DNA from: Centroberyx gerrardi
Lineage: Eukaryota > Chordata > Actinopteri > Beryciformes > Berycidae
Assembly (NCBI RefSeq): GCF_048128805.1
Contig: NC_136010.1
Span: 22,115,480 to 22,179,479, forward strand
Direction: 5' to 3'
Length of the DNA: 64,000 nt
The position numbers were made by a program, and so were the translations under genes. Position 1 is the stretch's first letter, and the number at the start of each line of letters is the position of its first letter. Under the pieces are notes generated by a model. That model did not search any database. It was not told the origin of the DNA and saw only the letters and a program-made list of their open reading frames with translations. Shown piece after piece: positions 22,115 through 63,937 of the stretch.

Positions 22115-25100
22115 CAGACATAATCTTCAGCAGTTAGGGCTGAGGAGAGTGACAGCTTTTTTTCTTCTGCTGTCGTTTCTCGCACTCTTTCTCCCTCTTT
22201 CTGTGTCACTCACTCGCTGTGCTTGCATGCAGAATAGTTGTACATGGAGTTATAGATGCTCCAGGCCTATACTTTGTTTAGATGCATTCAGCAGAGCCAA
22301 TGTCAGTCTGGATCCATGTGAAGGCCCATTCATAGGAGACTTGGCAGGCAGGCGGGCGGGCTAAGACACGTGGAGTGCCTTGACACACTCTTCTCTTCTC
22401 TTCTCTTCTCTTCTCTTCTCTTCTCCGTTTCCTCTGGAGCAGCTTTCTGTTTTTCCCTCCCTTTTTCCTCCCTCCTTGCTCTTTGTCTCTCATGTGCATC
22501 TGTTACCAATGAAAATTCGCTGTGCTCCGTACCAGGTCACACATCGCACTGCCTGGCCTCCCTCCTCTCCTTCCTTCCTCCCTCCTAACATCCATGCAAC
22601 CAGTACTGTTACACAATCGTTTACTGTGCCTGTATTTATCTTTGGTGCCATAGCACCACCTGCTGGTGAACAGTTGGAATGGTCAGATGTAATAAATCAT
22701 TTTAATTGCATTATTTACATAATGGTCTTGCTCAGTATAGATGTTAAACCTGCTATATTTGGTCAATAATGCATCCAGGTTCTACGTCACCCACCATCAC
22801 TCCTTGTTGAGTCCCAATAATCTGCATTATAAGGGTCAACACTGCCCTGATCTTATTCATTACATCCATGCTCTTTATGATATTCATTGCCTCTGTTTGT
22901 CCCTCCCTTCCTTCCCTCCAGGTCCAATCAGCAGTATCCTTGTGAATAAGTTTGGCAGTCGACCAATCATCATGGTGGGAGGTTGTCTGGCTGGGTCGGG
23001 GCTGGTCGCTGCCTCCTTCTGCAACACTGTGCAACAGCTCTACTTCTTCATAGGAGTGGTAGGAGGTCAGTAGCTTAAATGTACCACAGATAAGCTGTAA
23101 AAATGTACCATTTATAGTTGTGCCTAGCATTTAACTTCCCGTGCAATTGATTGGTTTGCAAACTCAGCACTTTGAAGACTTATTAAAGCTGACATGGTTG
23201 GACATGGTTGCAGTTTAAAAAGGTTTTTTGTTTGTCCTCATTTCATTCCCCTATCCCTACACCTCTCCTCATGCATCCCTCCTTCTCTCTGTTCCATCCC
23301 GCCAACTCTCTCTTTCTCCAGGTTTGGGACTGGCGTTCAACTTGAATCCAGCTCTCACCATGATCGGTAAATACTTTTACAAGCGCCGGCCCATCGCTAA
23401 CGGCATCGCTATGGCGGGCAGCCCCGTCTTCCTGTCCACCCTGGCCCCTCTCAACTCCTGGCTGTTCGACCAGTTTGGGTGGAGAGGCAGCTTCCTCATA
23501 CTGGGAGGGCTTCTGCTCAACTGCTGCGTGGCCGGCTCCCTCATGCGGCCCCTTGGACCCACGCCCCAGCCGGCCAAGCCCGACTCGGAGCTGGGCGACG
23601 GGAAGGCGGCGGACGGCGTGGTGCAGCCGCAGCCCAAGAAGACGGTGCTGCAGACCATCAACTCTTTCCTCGACCTGACGCTGTTCAAACACCGCGGCTT
23701 CCTGCTCTACCTGATGGGCAACGTCGTCATGTTCTTCGGCCTCTTCGCGCCCCTCGTCTTCCTCTCCAACTACGCCAAAAGCAAGGACATCAGCAAGGAG
23801 AAGGCGGCCTTCCTGCTGTCGGTGCTGGCCTTCGTCGACATGTTCGCCCGGCCCTCCATGGGCCTGCTGGCCAACACCAAGTGGGTCCGGCCCAGGGTGC
23901 AGTACTTCTTCGCTGCTGCCGTCCTTTACAACGGAGTGTGCCACGTGCTGGCGCCGCTGTCAGTGGACTACACTGGGTTTGTGATCTACGCCATCTTCTT
24001 TGGATTCGCCTTTGGCTGGCTGAGCGCAGTGCTGTTTGAGACGCTGATGGACCTGGTGGGGGCACAGAGGTTCTCCTCAGCCGTCGGCCTGGTCACTATT
24101 GTGGAGTGTGGGCCTGTGCTTCTGGGCCCGCCGCTAACAGGTAGGAGCTCCAGTATGGGTCTTGAAAGGACAATTCAGTCAATCAGTTGTTTTCAACATG
24201 GGCCTTATTTTCCTAGTTTTTGCCATCGTGAGTGATTGTGTTGAAATTGTAGTCACTTACTTCATATTTATCGGAAATAGGATATGATATGAACGCAGCA
24301 TCAGACTACTTGAACGGTCTTGTTGCCAGTTAGCTCACGCTAGTTAAAATAACATATCTAATAATGTAATATATTCAAGTTTCAGGTAATGGATAATGGG
24401 AATATTGGATGTAGGCAGGTCCTAGTGTAGTCAGTGTGAGTGTCATTGTGTTGAAAAGACACATTTTATTCGCGTTTTGGGTTGGACTGTTGGAGTTTGT
24501 ATTGGCCCTGTGGGTGTGTATTGGAGAGTGCGCTCCCTGCAGCTGAGAGGTACGTAAAGATCTAGTGAAGGAAGTGATGACATTTTCAACACAATCAATC
24601 GTCATGATGGCATAAGCTAGGAAAATAAGGCCCAGGTTGAAAATAACCGGAATTATCGTTTAAGCTATCTGGAAAATGAAAAGGAAGATTTGTGTTTTGA
24701 GGCAGGGTGGAGGGTTGAATTTGCATTGGGTGAAATGGGGTGGAAAAACACTTTGACTCTCTCTTTCCCCCATTCAACACTCACACTAAAAAGCCACTTT
24801 CTCTCCATATATCCATGTTTTCATTTATCAGTGTAGCTAACTTTTTATAGACCGTGTACACAGATATGGTAATCAGATGTTGGTCCAGACAAACCTTTGA
24901 AGCCTCTCTCTCTTGTCTCTTGTCCACCTTCAGGTAGTTTCTACAACTATTACCACCACTACGACTACACCTACATCTCCTCCGGCATCATCCTCATCAT
25001 CGCGAGCATCTTCCTCTTCACGGGAATGGGCATCAACTACCACCTGCTGGCGCGGGAGAGGAAAGAGGAGGAGAGGAGAGAGAGGGAGGAGCCCAAGGAG

Positions 25101-32000: not shown

Positions 32001-34456
32001 CCTCAGGGGGCCCATCGGCAGGTTCTGATAGGTAGATACAGGGTCAAAGCTGGTGTGACTTCCATGGTTATCGAAGGTGGTGGGCAGAGCATACAGGGAG
32101 CTGCTGCACCTCCCTCTGCTGGCTCCTCCTCCTCCTCTGTGGCTGTCCCGTCTGGACGGGGGGAGGGAGGCGGGGGAGAGGCGGCGCTCCGACTTCAGGT
32201 ACAGATTGTTGTGGATCTCCATGAAGATTCGCACCTGAGGGAGAAGGGAAGGGAAAAGAAGACCAGTGAATAATAAAGGTGGGTAAAGTCTGACCTATGA
32301 CCTCCAATCAGTAATCTTCATAGATTACTGTACAAAAAACAATTATATTTTCAAATGAGTGTTAACTATTTTACTTAAAAGACCTTATCTTTATCTTAGC
32401 TTCATCTTATAACTTACATCAGCTTGATACAACTTAATATGATTATTAGGGATGGGACGATATATCGAAATTCAATATATCGCAATGCCATGGAGCAGAA
32501 AAATGAATCGCGATATTAGCTCCATTTTTGCTGCTGTAGTAATCACAGATGAGACAGCTTGCCCATCACAATTTCACAAGCTCTCCATCCAAATTATATT
32601 ATTTGCTTTGTTGTCATTGAATTTAATATATTTATATATTTATTACATCGTATTGTGGTTGTATCGAATCGTGAGCCCTATATCATGTATTGAATCGTAT
32701 CGTGAGATAAGCATATCGTCCCATCCCTAATGATTATACAATTAGTTTACCTCATAAATATTCATGTCAGGCTGAAAAGCTGTGCTATCAATCAGTCCAG
32801 CAGAATAAAATGTAATGCTCACATGGAGGGATGCAGAATGGCCTCTGCAAAAAATGGCTGCCAATGGGAGCAGTGACATTAAGTGAATGTATTCTATTCT
32901 ATTCTGTTGTATTCTATCCCTACCTGGCAGACGGTGATGACGAGGACGGGGAGGATGAAGACAGCCAGGGTCATCCAGGTCACGTAGGCCTTGAGGCCCC
33001 AGGACTCAGCGAAGTGGCCCCAACACTCGTACACCCCCGGGGCCACTTCCGAACGAGAGAAGATGAACACCTGGGGGTAAAAAGGTGTGTGTGTGTGGGG
33101 GGGGAAGGGGGTGATAGAGAGAGAGTGACAGAGATTACTGGGAGTAAAGACTGATGGGACAACGTGAGAGTGTCTGCCTCTGTGTCTCCGCGTCTGCGTA
33201 TTTTTTATTGTCAATCCTCAAGGCAGGCAGTATATTAAAGTTTAACATCCATCAAACCTCGAGTATATTAAACCTTGACCTTGTCTCCCTGTCTCCCCCC
33301 CACCCCACCCCACCCCACCCCACCTGTGGCAGGCTGAGCAGCAGCGACAGCCCCCAGGCCAGCAATATGAACGTGTTCCAGCGCTGCGTGGCCCCGCTGC
33401 GGTGCGCCTGCAGGGGGCAGCAGATGGCGTAGTGGCGGTCCACCGTCATGGCCACGATCATGTAGGAGGAGGCGAACATCCCGAGGACCTGGAGGTATTT
33501 CACCAGGCGACAGAGGAAGTCGGGGCCAGGAAACCGGCCCCTGGCATCCCACACCAGCTGGGGCAACACCTGAAAGAGGAAGAGGGGGAGGAAGTGGTTG
33601 CATTGAGTTGCAGGGAAGGACTGTGGGTGTGGGTGTGTGGGTGCGTGTGTGTGTGTGTGTGGAGGAGGGTGGAGGGTCGCAGCAGCAGAGAACAGGCTAA
33701 ATATAAAGATAAGATGACTAGCGAGTACTGAAGAAAACGATTACAATAACCAAATGTATTGCAAAAAATTACAACATATAAATATACAGAGATAGAGATA
33801 AAGATGGAGTGTCTTCGGTGGACGTGCAAGTGTGCAGCGCTAGCTCTTCACATTCTCAGGTGTACAGATGGGAGAACAAAGAGAAGAGATAAACTAGAAT
33901 GTGTACTTCTAGAATGTGGGTCATTTTTAGGTATAAGCTTGGGGCTACAATTAGTATAGGCAGTGATGTAGTGGTAAATAATATGAAGGTAAATTATGAC
34001 CTCCAGTTGTGATCAGATTTATGTCAAGCTAAAAAGTATGGGTTTGTATTGGTGGCATGTATATGTGGATTTGTATTGGTGTGCAGATGTATGCATGGAT
34101 TTGTATCTGTGTGCACATGTATGCATGGATTTGTATTAGTTTGTGTGCATGAGTGTGTAGGTGTGTATGTGTTTGCGTGTTACCTGGAACAGTGCCACCA
34201 CCAGGTCAGCCAGACAGAGGTTGAGCATGAACTGGTGGAGCGGGTTGTGGTGTCGTCTGCGCCTTAGCAACACCACCAACACCAGCCCGTTGCCGAGCAG
34301 CGCCATCACCAAGATGACCGCCAGCAGCACCACCTCGGCCACCGCCAGCAGGGCGTCCCGCTCCCGCTCGGTGACGTTGGTCACCGCCGGGGTCACAGAG
34401 ACCACGGACCAATCACTGGATGGATATGAGTCTGTTACCAAGGAGACTGACATCAT
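29071..34456 (-). CDS. avpr2: Vasopressin V2-type receptor, complete coding region, 6 coding exons
   Basis: Coding exons in transcript order are 34456-34184, 33569-33324, 33070-32924, 32234-31946, 30426-30181 and 29255-29071. Introns 1-3 are phase 0 and introns 4-5 phase 1; the product is 461 aa (human V2R is 371). V2R is a Gs-coupled class A GPCR for vasopressin-type peptides. Visible marks are glycosylation site N27 (NVT), TM1 G55-N56, TM2 D84, extracellular cysteines C111 and C189, DRH (not DRY) at 135-137, CWAPFF at 380-385 in TM6, NPWIY at 418-422 in TM7, and a Ser/Thr-rich tail (DSTTT). The TM5-TM6 loop is about 145 residues, roughly three times the mammalian one. Only the TM6/TM7 intron matches human AVPR2. 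The start chosen is the first of two tandem ATGs just after acceptor CTCTCAG (exon begins 34458). Which teleost V2 paralogue this is cannot be decided here. Confidence 0.93.
29800..30170. repeat. Compound (TG)n/(TATG)n tract in avpr2 intron 5
   Basis: About 370 bp of TG, TATG, TACATG and TGCATG words fill the 5' part of the intron between the TM6 and TM7 exons (30180-29256). The reading frames through it are repeat artefacts. Confidence 0.85.
30562..30664 (+). other. Hammerhead-ribozyme-like core, probable retroelement remnant
   Basis: CTGATGA (30583-30589) is followed by a GGTC/GACC stem with a short loop and then GAAA (30604-30607), the conserved hammerhead core order. ACCTGC upstream (30567-30572) can pair with GCAGGT downstream (30655-30660) as an outer stem. 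TTGCT (30610-30614) can pair with AGCAA (30637-30641) as the third stem. Hammerheads of this kind are known in Penelope-like retroelements. Activity is doubtful because the cleavage-site region is degenerate. It lies in avpr2 intron 4, antisense to the gene. Confidence 0.45.
31507..31546. repeat. (TAGAA)n microsatellite
   Basis: Seven units in avpr2 intron 4. A shorter related run (TATTC on the plus strand) sits at 32890-32916 in intron 3. Confidence 0.9.
31579..31930. mobile_element. Tc1-like non-autonomous element
   Basis: Ends ACAGTCAGAAGTTGCGACACACC and GGTGTGTCCACACTTTAGACTGGTA are inverted repeats of the classic fish Tc1 type (CAGTCAAAAGTTTGGACACACC), with TA at both borders. Internal text (ATCAAAACTATGAAATAACAC, AAAAAAGTGTTAAACAAATC) also matches the common teleost Tc1 sequence. 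Length is about 350 bp with no transposase. It ends 16 nt from an avpr2 exon. Confidence 0.8.
32447..32729. mobile_element. hAT-type MITE (283 bp) with 8-bp target duplication
   Basis: Inverted ends TAGGGATGGGACGATAT and GATAAGCATATCGTCCCATCCCTA flank an AT-rich, non-coding interior. The octamer ATGATTAT is duplicated exactly at 32439-32446 and 32730-32737, as expected for hAT insertion. It lies in avpr2 intron 3. Confidence 0.9.
33292..33323 (-). repeat. (GGGGT)n quadruplex-capable repeat abutting an avpr2 splice donor
   Basis: On the gene strand the intron begins GTGGGGTGGGGTGGGGTGGGG and ends in a seven-G run, i.e. at least five G-tracts starting one base into intron 2. Confidence 0.9.
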
Positions 34457-34569
34457 GCCTGAGAGAGGAGAAGGAGAGAGGAGAGGAGAAGGAGAGACGA
34501 GAGGAGAAGGAGAGAGGAGAGGAGCTCTTAAAGAGTTGGGAATTCGGAGCTCCTCCTTCAAAGTTATGG

Positions 34570-35256
34570 TATAGAAAAGAGCAATATTTCAGAAAAGACA
34601 GACTCATCATAGTTTAGCATGCATCAAACATTTGATGTTTTGGAGGTTCTTGAAGATGGGGCACATATTTAGATCCACTGGAGGCCAATGACAATAACAA
34701 GTCAGAAAATCTCAGTAATGGAAAAATTATGCCAAATTATGTACTGAGGTTCTATTAGGGTAAGAATTTCATAGGACAAAGGGCAGCATTATCCTTTAAC
34801 CAAATACTGGGAAGGACAAACATGACCTCGTGCTTTGCTTTCTAAATTCTTCAAGTATTTCACTTGTGTGTCACATCACACACATTAAAAGCTGGATAGA
34901 TCAGGTAAGGTAGTACAACTCAGAGAAAGAAATGGGACCACTATGCACTCTCTCTCTTTGTTTTTTCTATTTACTCTATTTTGAAAAAATAAAGCATCAT
35001 TAATGGCAGTAATCAGTGGAGAACCCCTGATGGCGCTGCAGAGAACCCTTTTCAGAGAACCCTGCCCTTGCTCATTGTGTTTGTGGCAAGCAGACTTTCC
35101 CCCACAGCCGTCATAACTGGCTGTTAGCGTGTAATGTTGATCACCAGAAATTGGTCAAACAGCCGTGACCTTATTAGGACCTGCCCATTAATGCTGGGAT
35201 TAGCGCTGGGTAAATAGTCCCACACAAGAGGCCCTCTCTGCATGCCTCTGTGGCTA

Positions 35257-39871: not shown

Positions 39872-40629
39872 CTAGATGCTCAGTGTCAGGGGCCCAGTGC
39901 TCTGGATGTCCTTCATGATGGACTTGACCACTTCAGAGGTGGAGCCTTGGCCTCCCAGGTCAGCAGTGTGCAGCTGGAGAGCAGAAGAGAGGAAAAGACA
40001 AGGATTTAAAGGCGGCCTGTGCTGAATACCTTTTATTCTCTATGTAATATATCATCGTCAAATGGAGTATCATAACAAACATCAATACTATGTTCTATAT
40101 AATTCTATATAATTTCTAACATATTTCATTTTTCTGCTCCTCTCTGCTTTCAGTGTATGATTTACTGGTCCAATGGAGGGGATATTTCAGTCAAAACTTA
40201 TGGAATCATATATATGAATGAAATGTTTGGCATCTTTAATCATTCGTCAGACAACTGACGGGCAGGCCTTAGTAGCGGCATTTTAGGGTGTGATGACACC
40301 TACAGTTTGTTTTCTTTGCTCTGAACCAGAGTGGAAATGCTTGCTTTGTACAATGTACATTTTTGTACAGGGTTTGTTTAGGTTCACACTGCCCAGTGAC
40401 AAGCCAACTAGGGCTTGTAAACACGTCACATGACGAGTCACAAGGACTCACAAGTAGTTTTGGTAACCTGGCCAAACAAACCAAACTAAAGGAGTAAATG
40501 CTCCAGAGTTTTAATAAACCGCTCCAAACATGCTTGGCATAAACACGGGTCTCACCTCAGGGAGACACTGACCGACAGTAAGACCAACCAACAGACCAAC
40601 AGACAAATGGACGGACATACAGGCGGATG

Positions 40630-40664
<35 letters not shown>

Positions 40665-41481
40665 GGGCATGAAACGACTTTGGGTACAAGGCGGCGTACC
40701 TGTGTCTCGGTGACGGTGGCGATGATGGCTCTGCGGATCATGCTGGCATAGGCATGGAGCTTCAGGTGATCCAGCAGCAGACAGGAGGCCAGCAGCATGG
40801 CTGTGGGGTTCGCTGTGTTGCGGTTGGCGATGCTCTTCCCCGTGTTCCTGGTGCCCTGCGTACAGTAGCACACATATTGAGAAAACTATTGAGAACACTA
40901 TTTTCAAAACCCATGACCCTGTGCTTTTCTGTTTCTTTCTCTCTCTGAATTGTCCCCCTCCCTCTTCTCATCCCTCACTCCCTCTGGTTTCCTTACAATC
41001 CATGAATTGAGAGTGTGAATCCGCTCACCGTCTCGAACACGGCATAGTCCTCTCCATAGTTGGCCCCGGGTACGAGGCCCGGCCCGCCGACCAGGCCAGC
41101 GCACACGTTGCTCACCACGTTCCCGTACAGGTTGGGCATGACCATCACATCAAACTGCTGGGGCTTGGACACCAGCTAACACACACATACACACACACAC
41201 GCACGCACACACACGGGTCAGGGGCCAACATGGGTCTTGGGCCTGGTTGTTTTGGGTCCCAGTAGACCCAGTAGAAATGTGAGATACTAAAAGTGATGAT
41301 GGTGATGATGTAAACACCACATAATGACAGGAGCAGTAATGATATGTGAATGTGAGCGTGCCATAGCTACCTGCATGGTGGTGTTATCTACAATCATGCT
41401 GTCAAAGGTGATTTCGGGGTAACCGCTGGCAACCTCCTTACAGCACTCCAGGAAGAGGCCGTCACCCAGCTTCCTGCTCCG

Positions 41482-41515
<34 letters not shown>

Positions 41516-42808
41516 ACAGATTTATTACTGCGTGTTTTATAGAGAAATGCAAACAAAGAGAAATATATAGCGAGAGAGAGACATAAAACAAATGTGAAGG
41601 GATCACACACACAAACACAGGGACTTTGAGCCCTCAGAAACTGACATGATGTTCGCTTTGTGTACAGCGGTGACTCGGCTGCGTCCTCTCTCCCGAGCCG
41701 TTCTGAACGCGTAGTCAGCGATGCGCAAAGATTTGGTCCTGGTGATGATCTTCAGACATTCAACAACGCCCGGTACATTCTGGAGAGAGGGAGAGAGAGA
41801 GAGAGAGAGAGGAAGAGAGAGAGAGTGCGGAGAGAAGTGGAGGTTGGTTTGTTATTATGGAATTATGATTCCGGCAGGGTGATCTAACCATAAAATTGAT
41901 TATGAATCACATAAGTGCCCTCCATCGCCCCCCACCCCCCTCCACTCCCAAACATACACACACACACACACACACACACCTCGTGCTCCAGGCTGCTGTA
42001 CTCTCCCTCAGTGTTCTCCCTGATGATCATGATGTCGATGTTTCTGTGGCGCGTCTTCACCCCAGGCAGAGACTGGCAGTGCATCACGTTGGCGAACAGG
42101 TCCAGAGTGGTGCTGCAGCGAGAGGGAGCAGCAAGAAAGAGAGAAAGAGAGGGGGGAAGGGAAGAGGAGTGTAAATACAGTTTCACACTGGTGACTTGAA
42201 GATAAGATAGAGCTGCTAGTCAGGAGGGTCCTGGTTGCTGTCAGGACTGAGTTGAGCAGAGATGAAAGGTGAAAGGTGATGGACTCACCGGAGCAGGCTG
42301 TTCCTTGACTTATAGGAGGGTGGCAGGTTGTGATTGGTCTCAATGTTACCTGGAGTAAACACAGAGAAAACCCTCAGGTCTGGCAACCAGTGGACAGACA
42401 TAACAGAACCAGAGCTTTCATATATAAAATATATAAGAAAGACAATAAACAAGACAAAATGTCCCCTCTTTCTTTTTTTAAGCCTGATAAATGCAGAGCT
42501 ACAAGTTTCCTTTTAAAACCGTCGACATCCTTACAGACATTATTAACATATATATATTATTTTTGATTGACTCCAATTCTATAAATACTATGGGTGAGTA
42601 CTATGGTTGAACCTCAACTTGAATTTGAAAGGAATGTGCTTCTGTGGAATATTTATTTGTGAATTAATACAATATTTCACAATGTTATTGTTCCAAGACA
42701 TGGTGAATTTTTCTCTCTGAGACATACATTTCCAGACTTCCCAGGCCTGAATAGGAACCCGTTCCATGTAGGCACACCCACATGGACCGACAGAAACACA
42801 CACACACA

Positions 42809-42847
<39 letters not shown>

Positions 42848-43219
42848 ACACTAACCTTTGAGGGCAACTCCGTTGCGTCTGATAGCCATAATGGCGTTGT
42901 TGATGTCATCTTCTGAGGTCAGAGAGGAGTCCACATTAGCCACCTCGAAATCCACTGGGACACAGCAGAACCTGAGAATAAATACATAGGGAGAGCGAAA
43001 GAAGAATGGAGCTATTCAGTGAGCGAGTGAATGAGTGAGTGAGGGAGTGAAAGACTGTTCAAACACTGTATATATGTGTGTGTGTGTAAGAGAGTGTACA
43101 GGATGTGTATGTTCTGACCGGAACAGCTCGCGCACGTGGTGGGCAAGCTCAGGTCCGATGCCATCTCCAGGAATCAGAGTCACAGTGTGCCTGCCTCCAT
43201 ACCGTGCAGGTGGAGGCTG

Positions 43220-43272
<53 letters not shown>

Positions 43273-44802
43273 TAACATCGTCCTAATACAATCCGGTATA
43301 CTCATCCCTAACAAACTACTGAGAAGACTCTAAGCTACTGGACAGGCAACTGAATTAACTTTCCATCTGTTGGCTATTCATCTACTAAATCCTAACACTT
43401 AACTTGTGCTACACCACTGTGTGTGTGCAAATGCGTACAAAATACTGTATATCTCTGTAAGTCCGTAAGCAGCCATACTCACTATGGTCTGGGCGTGGGC
43501 AGACGGAGGAAGGAGGGATATAGAGTGCAGGAGAGAAAACAGGGAGGGTTAGTAGGGGAAGGAGGAGTGGAAGACACACAGAGACCAGCAGGCTCCTGAC
43601 GGCACCGCAAGTCCACTGATGAAAAGAAACAACATCGGTGCTCCTGCACGCATACAGTAAAGACAGTTGTTGGTGAGCTAGGGAATTGCCTGTGGGGTGA
43701 AACGGTAGGTTTGTGAGGACAGGAAGGGCACAAGGTAAACCTAGTGTGGGTCTGCTGGCTGAGCTCCTGAGCTGAGGATGTTATGATTAAAAAATCATAA
43801 ATCACTGCTACATTTTTGTCATTAGGCCTACATTAAGTCTTTTGTCTACATTTGTGTCCTGGACAACTCACAGCATAGGTGGACTTGTGCCGCTGATTAC
43901 ATGAAGCTGCCCCATATACCTGTGGATATAGAGAAAAGGTGGTTAGTTGAAAAGAGGTTATGAATTCAGTACAGCTCAATAAGTGATAAATCAGGGGTCT
44001 ATAGAAAAATCATTATAAAGTTCTTATTGTATTCCTATGATTGTATCTATATTTAATAGTGAGTTTGTAATATCCTAAACATACTTCATGTATTTTTTTA
44101 ATCTCCCATGGTATCACTATAATATTCCTATAGGGACTTAAAAGTCTGTCTGTGGCACTCAAAAGTGAGTTTATAGTGACCAGATCGTACTTTCTAGATT
44201 TTTTTAATCTCCTGTGGCATTACTATAGAATTTCCGTGGTAGTAAAAAATGTTCACCTACAGTTAGCTGCATGATATTTTAAAGTTTTGTTGTGATATTT
44301 GAGTGGTATAAACTTGGTTCTCAGTGAAGGGAGAGGAGTTGGTAACTTAGCAACCGTTAGTTAGTTCATGTAGATACTGTAGTGTTAGCCTCTGAATAAT
44401 TTATGGCTCTGCAGGGAGCACTTAAAGTATACATTTGCAGCCTTATCTCGCTCGGCTTGGTAGCAAATGACTGCTGTTCAAGTACATATTTTTTCTGTGG
44501 GGAATTCAGGTTGACAGCAAACTGACCTTGCGTTGTGGTGCTGAAAGGACAGCGGCATAAAACCAGCAGTCCGCTAGCCCAGTTAGCCAACTAATCAGCT
44601 TAGCTAGACTCACTGACTGGACAAATCAACCAAGCGAAGCGAATATACCACTTCACACGTCAAAACAAAGCCTGTTTCCCAGTCTGATAATACACCTAAA
44701 GGCTGTTCCTACCCTGGCAGCGGGAGTGTTGGCCAGCCGGTCGCTCCACACGGGTCTCAGTGCCCTGGACAGACAACAGACAGACCGGGCCGTCATCCTC
44801 AT
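39872..44802 (-). CDS. idh3g: Isocitrate dehydrogenase [NAD] subunit gamma, mitochondrial, complete coding region, 12 coding exons
   Basis: Exons in transcript order are 44802-44713, 43919-43872, 43488-43483 (6 nt), 43216-43119, 42971-42856, 42349-42289, 42112-41980, 41779-41646, 41473-41371, 41175-41029, 40855-40700 and 39973-39872. They join in one frame to 397 aa (human IDH3G is 393). IDH3-gamma is the regulatory subunit of the matrix enzyme that converts isocitrate to 2-oxoglutarate in the TCA cycle. The first 30 residues are Arg/Ser/Ala-rich, as expected of a mitochondrial presequence. The body shows [78 protein letters not shown] and [21 protein letters not shown], all gamma-type. The ATG at 44802 has A at -3; a second in-frame ATG lies two codons later. 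The poly(A) signal AATAAA is at 39216-39211. The gene is head to head with fam120c. Confidence 0.95.
40627..40664. repeat. (GACA)n microsatellite
   Basis: Nine or so GACA units in idh3g intron 11, about 35 nt from the exon at 40700. Confidence 0.9.
43221..43270. repeat. (CA)n microsatellite in an idh3g intron
   Basis: On the gene strand it reads (TG)n and ends five nucleotides before the acceptor of the exon starting at 43216. Confidence 0.95.
43483..43488 (-). other. idh3g: Predicted 6-nt microexon of idh3g encoding Thr-Ile
   Basis: On the minus strand a pyrimidine-rich run ends in CCCAG, followed by ACCATA and then a consensus donor GTGAGTAT. Inserting these two codons between the neighbouring exons (both phase 0) gives ...[14 protein letters not shown], matching the human stretch ...SEQTIPPSAKYGG. 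Leaving it out drops exactly those two residues without a frameshift. Confidence 0.75.
44059..44245. repeat. Two diverged direct repeat units of about 80 bp
   Basis: Both units run from AGTGAGTTT through a shared ATTTTTTTAATCTCC block to CACTATA/TACTATA…TTCC. The first covers about 44059-44140 and the second about 44165-44245. They lie in idh3g intron 1. Confidence 0.6.
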
Positions 44803-45966: not shown

Positions 45967-46943
45967 GTGTGGAAGAAAGCGAGGGAGGCACCATCGGGCT
46001 TTTATTTTTATTTTCTTTTAGTTACTTTTCTTTTATTTCGTCAAACATCCATCTCATTCCGCGTCGTGTCCGCCCCGGACTTGTCTTCGAGAGTTGACGC
46101 GTCAAATCACGCCGGGGACCCTGCCAGCAGCTAACACCAGCTAGCCACACAGTTAGCAAATACTACAGCTAGCCACTCAGTCAGGCACACAGCTCGCTAG
46201 TTTGGCTTTTTAATTGATATTCCGACACCACCAAGCTAAAAAGCTACCACTACATATGTGCTGAAATTCGGCTGAGATAGTGTAATATCAATATCAAATA
46301 TTTCAACTGTCATATAGAAATAACGATCTTGCTAGCTGTTCGATTTAACATCATGTCCGCGAACTGGCCAGCCAGTCTGTAACGTTAGGTTGCTAACTAA
46401 TGCGCAGTATTGCATCTCATGTGCACCACTCAGTAGGATTATTATTTTGTAGGCATTGCTCTGTAACATCCACCAGCTAGCTGCATCATCGTTATCAGTA
46501 GCCAACTACATTTCTTGGTTTATTTGGGAAGCCAGTTTTCTAAAAGCCAAGTTATGGGGGCAGGCAATTTGGTAAACTTTTTCAAGCTGTAGCTAGCTAC
46601 ACTGGCCTTGCTGGCACCTCACCAAAAATCTACAGGGATGGACACTAAACTCAACACTCACGACCAAATTTGAAGGATTGACATTAGGTTCCTTGGAATA
46701 AGTAGCTGTCAAATATAATATTTGTAAGGCGGTGCATGGTCGATCAATTACCGTGTCTGGGTGACAGATAAGTTGTTTTGCAAGGTTAACTAGACTCCAG
46801 TCAGTCACTACATCAGAGACCAGTTAGCTTGCCAACAGTGCATAGCTAGCTACAGTCTCGCCCCACATAACATTACAAACACGGCGTACAGAACGTATCC
46901 CGAGCCCGCTCCCGGCCAGACACACAGGCTCAACAACACCGTC
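45967..46943 (+). other. fam120c: fam120c 5' leader or leader intron
   Basis: The segment between the donor at 45963 and the fam120c ATG shows no clear gene. A possible acceptor (CTACAG) ends at 46855; whether it is used is unknown. The sequence is rich in AGCTAG words. Confidence 0.4.

Positions 46944-63937
<16,994 letters not shown>

Follow-up and report, generated by a model that had tools for sequence, protein, structure and literature searches.

The window analysed here, a stretch of DNA of 64 kb that probably comes from a teleost fish, carries on its minus strand a gene that we assembled from eleven ordinary coding exons and a stretch of six nucleotides, ACCATA (Table 1). When these 12 exons were joined, an open frame of 397 residues was obtained. 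Comparison of the full translation with PDB chains yielded 593 bits for the gamma subunit of IDH3, and lower values for the beta subunit (381 bits), yeast IDH1 (354 bits) and the alpha subunit (289 bits). Thus, the gene encodes the gamma subunit (idh3g). The translation is nearer to gamma than to either of the two other subunits and it contains the arm motif A(K/R)YGG in the form ARYGG. The human IDH3G gene, we assume, has a similar number of exons. As for the neighbourhood, an open stretch on the plus strand (46794-47471) is divergent from idh3g, and its product is presumably a FAM120-type protein. Downstream of idh3g, an open stretch on the minus strand (34136-34588) encodes a first GPCR segment, which we take to resemble a vasopressin-type receptor. 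An open stretch of 338 residues on the plus strand (23219-24235) presumably resembles an SLC16-type monocarboxylate transporter.

Table 1. Features of the idh3g locus (window positions)
Feature	Position	Strand	Basis
idh3g exon 1, coding part, 90 nt	44713..44802	-	
idh3g exon 2, 48 nt, leader end and arm start (putative leader/arm division)	43872..43919	-	
AG-free zone, 102 nt, upstream of the microexon acceptor	43491..43592	-	
Predicted branch site (TACTAAC consensus), its A (43549) 61 nt upstream of the microexon	43548..43554	-	
Acceptor AG of the microexon	43489..43490	-	sequence and matrix score
Predicted 6-nt microexon ACCATA (Thr-Ile), phase 0/0	43483..43488	-	sequence and shuffles
Microexon donor GTGAGTAT	43475..43482	-	top score, 72 GTs scanned
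idh3g exon after the microexon, 98 nt	43119..43216	-	
Remaining eight idh3g coding exons, span	39872..42971	-	
First four of these eight	42971-42856, 42349-42289, 42112-41980, 41779-41646	-	
Last four of these eight	41473-41371, 41175-41029, 40855-40700, 39973-39872	-	

The six nucleotides ACCATA are located on the minus strand at 43488-43483, where they are preceded by CCCAG and followed by GTGAGTATG; the wider context reads ...ctccgtctgcccacgcccag-ACCATA-gtgagtatgg. Both neighbouring coding exons meet it in phase 0, the 48-nt exon upstream (43919-43872) at its end and the 98-nt exon downstream (43216-43119) at its start, and the introns on either side, of 383 and 266 nt, are short. If a microexon is defined as an internal exon of 30 nt or less with AG and GT at its flanks, this stretch with its 6 nt, its AG and its GTGAGT falls into that class. 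Because six is divisible by three and neither junction splits a codon, skipping keeps the frame, and without ACCATA we obtained an open frame of 395 residues that lacks Thr-Ile. The first-pass annotation had proposed a microexon at this site, with phase-0 neighbours and a frame that survives its loss. We found sequence, flanks and neighbouring phases as described, and the two open frames bear out the second part of this proposal.

At the point where the flanking exons meet, the gamma chains in the PDB (14 matched chains, 3 distinct sequences) read QTIPPSAKYGG. PMC7752914, a study that uses 5GRH, identifies the gamma-subunit chains as human. Mature human IDH3G thus has Thr-Ile at the corresponding position, and the earlier suggestion that ACCATA restores these two human residues holds. 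When the fragment was aligned with gamma, the score was 102.3 bits with Thr-Ile and 98.6 bits without. The alignment with yeast IDH2 was marginally better without Thr-Ile (34.5 vs. 33.6 bits), and this result counts against the exon.

One way to account for the match is chance. In this case the intron between 43872 and 43216 (655 nt) would be removed as a whole, ACCATA would be noise and the gamma subunit of this species would lack Thr-Ile. The intron contains nine AG-N6-GT stretches, one of which encodes Thr-Ile, and ACCATA is its only in-frame stretch of 3-51 nt with AG before and GT[AG]AG after it. When the intron was shuffled with preservation of its dinucleotides, AG-TI-GT was found in 221 of 20000 shuffles and AG-TI-GTRAG in 9 of 20000 (28 of 100000 in a separate run). 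If a CTRAY motif in an AG-free zone (up to 90 nt) was demanded in addition, the count fell to 2 of 100000. On both strands of the 64-kb window, AG-TI-GTRAG occurs once, namely at the microexon site, and AG-TI-GT twice. For mini-exons of unspecified sequence the numbers were quite different: 12720 of 20000 shuffles contained some stop-free in-frame exon of 3-30 nt with a GTRAG donor, and 173 of 20000 contained a 6-nt exon, regardless of its sequence, whose two splice sites both scored as high as those of ACCATA. Because unspecific mini-exons are that common, our argument rests on the identity of the two residues. The frame, which survives without ACCATA, and the frequency of unspecific mini-exons speak for chance. 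The rarity of the Thr-Ile match, the presence of the same residues at exactly this point of human gamma and the AG-free tract with a branch-site consensus ahead of ACCATA speak against it. Pure chance is an unlikely origin of the match, and we consider it very improbable that the intron is removed whole and gamma lacks the two residues.

A simple matrix of vertebrate splice-site frequencies was used to score the splice sites. The microexon donor (score 7.0) ranked first of the 72 GTs scanned; the donor of exon 2 reached 6.0. The microexon acceptor scored 5.5 and was joint fifth of the 46 AGs in the intron, four of which scored higher (10.1, 9.3, 7.9 and 6.2). Compared with the other idh3g acceptors, as assigned by frame and homology, it outscored three (4.5, 2.8, 2.0), equalled one (5.5) and was surpassed by six. 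Thus, the GTGAGT donor described in the first-pass annotation stands, but the wording "good acceptor" was generous for a site that is only joint fifth of 46. By the rules of U1 pairing, the continuation of the donor as GTGAGTAT means that pairing can extend into the intron, whereas the exon side (ATA) offers little.

Upstream of the acceptor, the predicted branch site lies within the 102-nt AG-free zone, which is rich in pyrimidines, with a pyrimidine fraction of 0.83 at positions -50 to -4. The AG-free zone is joint longest among the 11 idh3g acceptors, being matched by one of the other 10. TACTAAC was present in 688 of 20000 shuffled introns, and in 8 of 20000 when at least 50 AG-free nucleotides had to follow, both the motif and the 50-nt threshold having been picked after the sequence was seen. 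The motif occurs three times on the two strands of the 64-kb window.

The exon that follows the microexon has a (TG)n run of 48 bases (43223-43270) directly in front of its acceptor, and TG-rich runs also precede two further idh3g acceptors (41473 and 41175). Since TDP-43 and CELF proteins bind UG repeats, repeat length could affect splicing here.

Other routes to Thr-Ile, or other uses of the microexon splice sites, were also considered. An extension of a neighbouring exon, which had been named earlier as an observation that would speak against the microexon, was ruled out on both sides: beyond exon 2 the intron continues in frame as VSCPG, the next exon is preceded by the (TG)n run, and the adjoining in-frame intron bases contain no Thr-Ile. 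When the microexon acceptor was combined with later donors, no longer in-frame stop-free exon of 9-198 nt was found. Alternatively, the donor at 43482 might serve a longer exon of the poison type that starts at an upstream acceptor (43689, 43643 or 43615). These acceptors score 9.3, 7.9 and 10.1, as compared with 5.5 for the microexon, but the resulting exons of 207, 161 and 133 nt would bring a stop after 49, 111 and 112 residues and none of the three acceptors explains Thr-Ile. Joined to the microexon donor, these three higher-scoring acceptors were ruled out because of a stop or a frameshift; the fourth, at 43307, is located downstream of that donor. A poison-type exon could occur as a minor form beside the microexon, but as the explanation of this donor we regard it as highly unlikely.

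The microexon might also be real and yet alternative, i.e., a cassette skipped in certain tissues, which would lead to two gamma forms with arms that differ by two residues. If skipping is minor, this explanation overlaps with that of a constitutive exon. Since skipping keeps the frame (multiple of three, phase 0 junctions), the gene structure is compatible with a cassette, and the moderate matrix score of the acceptor points in the same direction. TGC, an SRRM4-type motif, is present at -13 of the microexon acceptor, but it is uninformative because it also occurs within 30 nt of the acceptor at 5 of the 10 other idh3g acceptors. The RBFOX core GCATG is absent from the 100 nt downstream of the microexon, and the search of the flanks for TGC and GCATG thus revealed nothing specific to a cassette exon. 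The 6-nt examples described in the cited parts of two papers are alternative or neuronal (PMC4317164; PMC7821500). On the other hand, the gamma chains in the PDB carry Thr-Ile, and short flanking introns, here 383 and 266 nt, were reported for constitutive micro-exons (PMC4317164). All in all, we consider a tissue-skipped cassette rather unlikely. Very probably, ACCATA is a genuine 6-nt exon of idh3g and enters most, if not all, of the mature mRNA.

In the window protein, an Arg is located three residues before the position that would give a 14-residue arm. When this position is compared with the human gamma leader and its cleavage rule, as we assume them to be, it would fit a cleavage register similar to that of the human protein. 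In isolated heterodimer structures residues 1-14 of gamma are disordered, whereas residues 5-14 are ordered in the heterooctamer (PMC7752914), and for the heterodimer a few undefined terminal residues were also described in PMC5241874. In the heterooctamer the gamma arm is inserted into the back cleft of beta, and deletion of residues 1-14 disrupts the heterooctamer (PMC7752914); the arm insertion is repeated in PMC9731866. In chain 5gre_B, Thr is residue 5 and Ile residue 6 of mature gamma when the numbering of PMC7752914 (AKYGG = 10-14) is applied. With the ordered part of the arm spanning residues 5-14, the microexon encodes the first two ordered arm residues in human numbering. However, the arm contacts given in the cited parts of that paper come from residue 8 and residues 10-14 and not from residues 5-6 (PMC7752914). 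For this reason, the two residues probably matter for the length or packing of the arm rather than as a key contact. We read the ACCATA exon as a constitutive microexon that sets the length of the gamma arm.

A likely mechanism for its recognition is as follows. U2 snRNP would bind TACTAAC at its distance of 61 nt from the microexon, and U2AF would bind the pyrimidine tract. This would leave room for U1 on the intron-side donor GUGAGUAU, although positions -3 to -1 of the exon offer little. Together, the remote branch point and the tract would let U2/U2AF and U1 bind at the same time around an exon that is too short for both, and the whole island would be recognised as a single unit, a behaviour that was tested for the 4-bp exon of MPC1. 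Inclusion of the microexon would give the normal arm length and thereby favour the heterooctamer. One might go further and propose a tissue-regulated length switch, in which inclusion gives the normal arm and stable octamers and skipping an arm two residues shorter. If this were true, skipping would shift IDH3 toward heterotetramers with weaker allosteric activation, and splicing would tune the TCA cycle, but we consider such a switch hardly probable.

Exons as small as 6 nt are easily lost in annotation: 16.1% of 402 microexons conserved between mouse and zebrafish were missing from the Ensembl zebrafish annotation (PMC7821500). In this gene, overlooking Thr-Ile would wrongly shorten the arm that assembles IDH3 in the human enzyme. 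A literature search, which covered the texts of papers, yielded no paper with both IDH3G and microexon in its text, and among the matches listed none was recognised as a paper on an IDH3G microexon or exon map. The term IDH3 occurs 0 times in the main texts of PMC7821500 and PMC9929638. A degenerate DNA pattern (CAG plus the next exon) gave 0 matches in collections of prokaryote and virus contigs, as expected there.

Microexons of 6 nt are an already known kind (PMC4317164; PMC7821500; PMC4674806) and the idh3g exon looks like a further example. The first-pass annotation had placed it among the smallest exons known. The size itself stands, but smaller ones have been reported: in 2015 the smallest constitutive exon then known had 6 nt, alternative exons of 3 nt had been described and a plant exon had 1 nt (PMC4674806). 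The micro-exons of CACNA1A and APBB1/2/3 (PMC4317164) and of Dctn2 (PMC7821500) also comprise 6 nt, two codons' worth; however, they are alternatively spliced or neuronal, whereas the idh3g exon is predicted to be constitutive and belongs to a TCA-cycle enzyme. For the constitutive class, strong 5' and 3' splice sites, short flanking introns and a high density of exonic splicing enhancers were described (PMC4317164). On these features, the idh3g exon has a donor that ranks first of 72, introns of 383 and 266 nt and an acceptor that is joint fifth of 46.

The best basis for comparison is exon 2 of MPC1, the gene for mitochondrial pyruvate carrier 1. It is a constitutive 4-bp microexon and likewise a tiny exon in a nuclear gene for a mitochondrial protein (PMC9929638). 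Its major branch points are given as -68 and -64 in a figure legend and as -63 in the discussion, the usual median being 28, and in reporters 67 nt of upstream sequence together with a 6-nt donor suffice for inclusion (PMC9929638). For the tiny exons of TNNI1, TMEM237, KSR1 and MUSK the reporter failed to reproduce constitutive splicing (PMC9929638), so that an island of the MPC1 type is not a general rule. The two exons also differ: that of MPC1 has 4 bp, which is not a multiple of three, lies between long introns and was experimentally tested, whereas that of idh3g has 6 bp, is frame-neutral, lies between introns of 383 and 266 nt and is predicted from sequence. If the idh3g exon is conserved across vertebrates, it would join MPC1 as a small natural model of how the spliceosome copes with an exon whose shortness prevents the usual binding of both splice sites. 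In both genes the branch point is distant (-68 and -64 in MPC1, predicted at -61 in idh3g) and a pyrimidine-rich tract far upstream is combined with a consensus 5' splice site (PMC9929638). Judged by sequence consensus, idh3g has an A at -61, a 102-nt AG-free zone and GTGAGT, and in this predicted anatomy its microexon resembles the "exon island" of MPC1.
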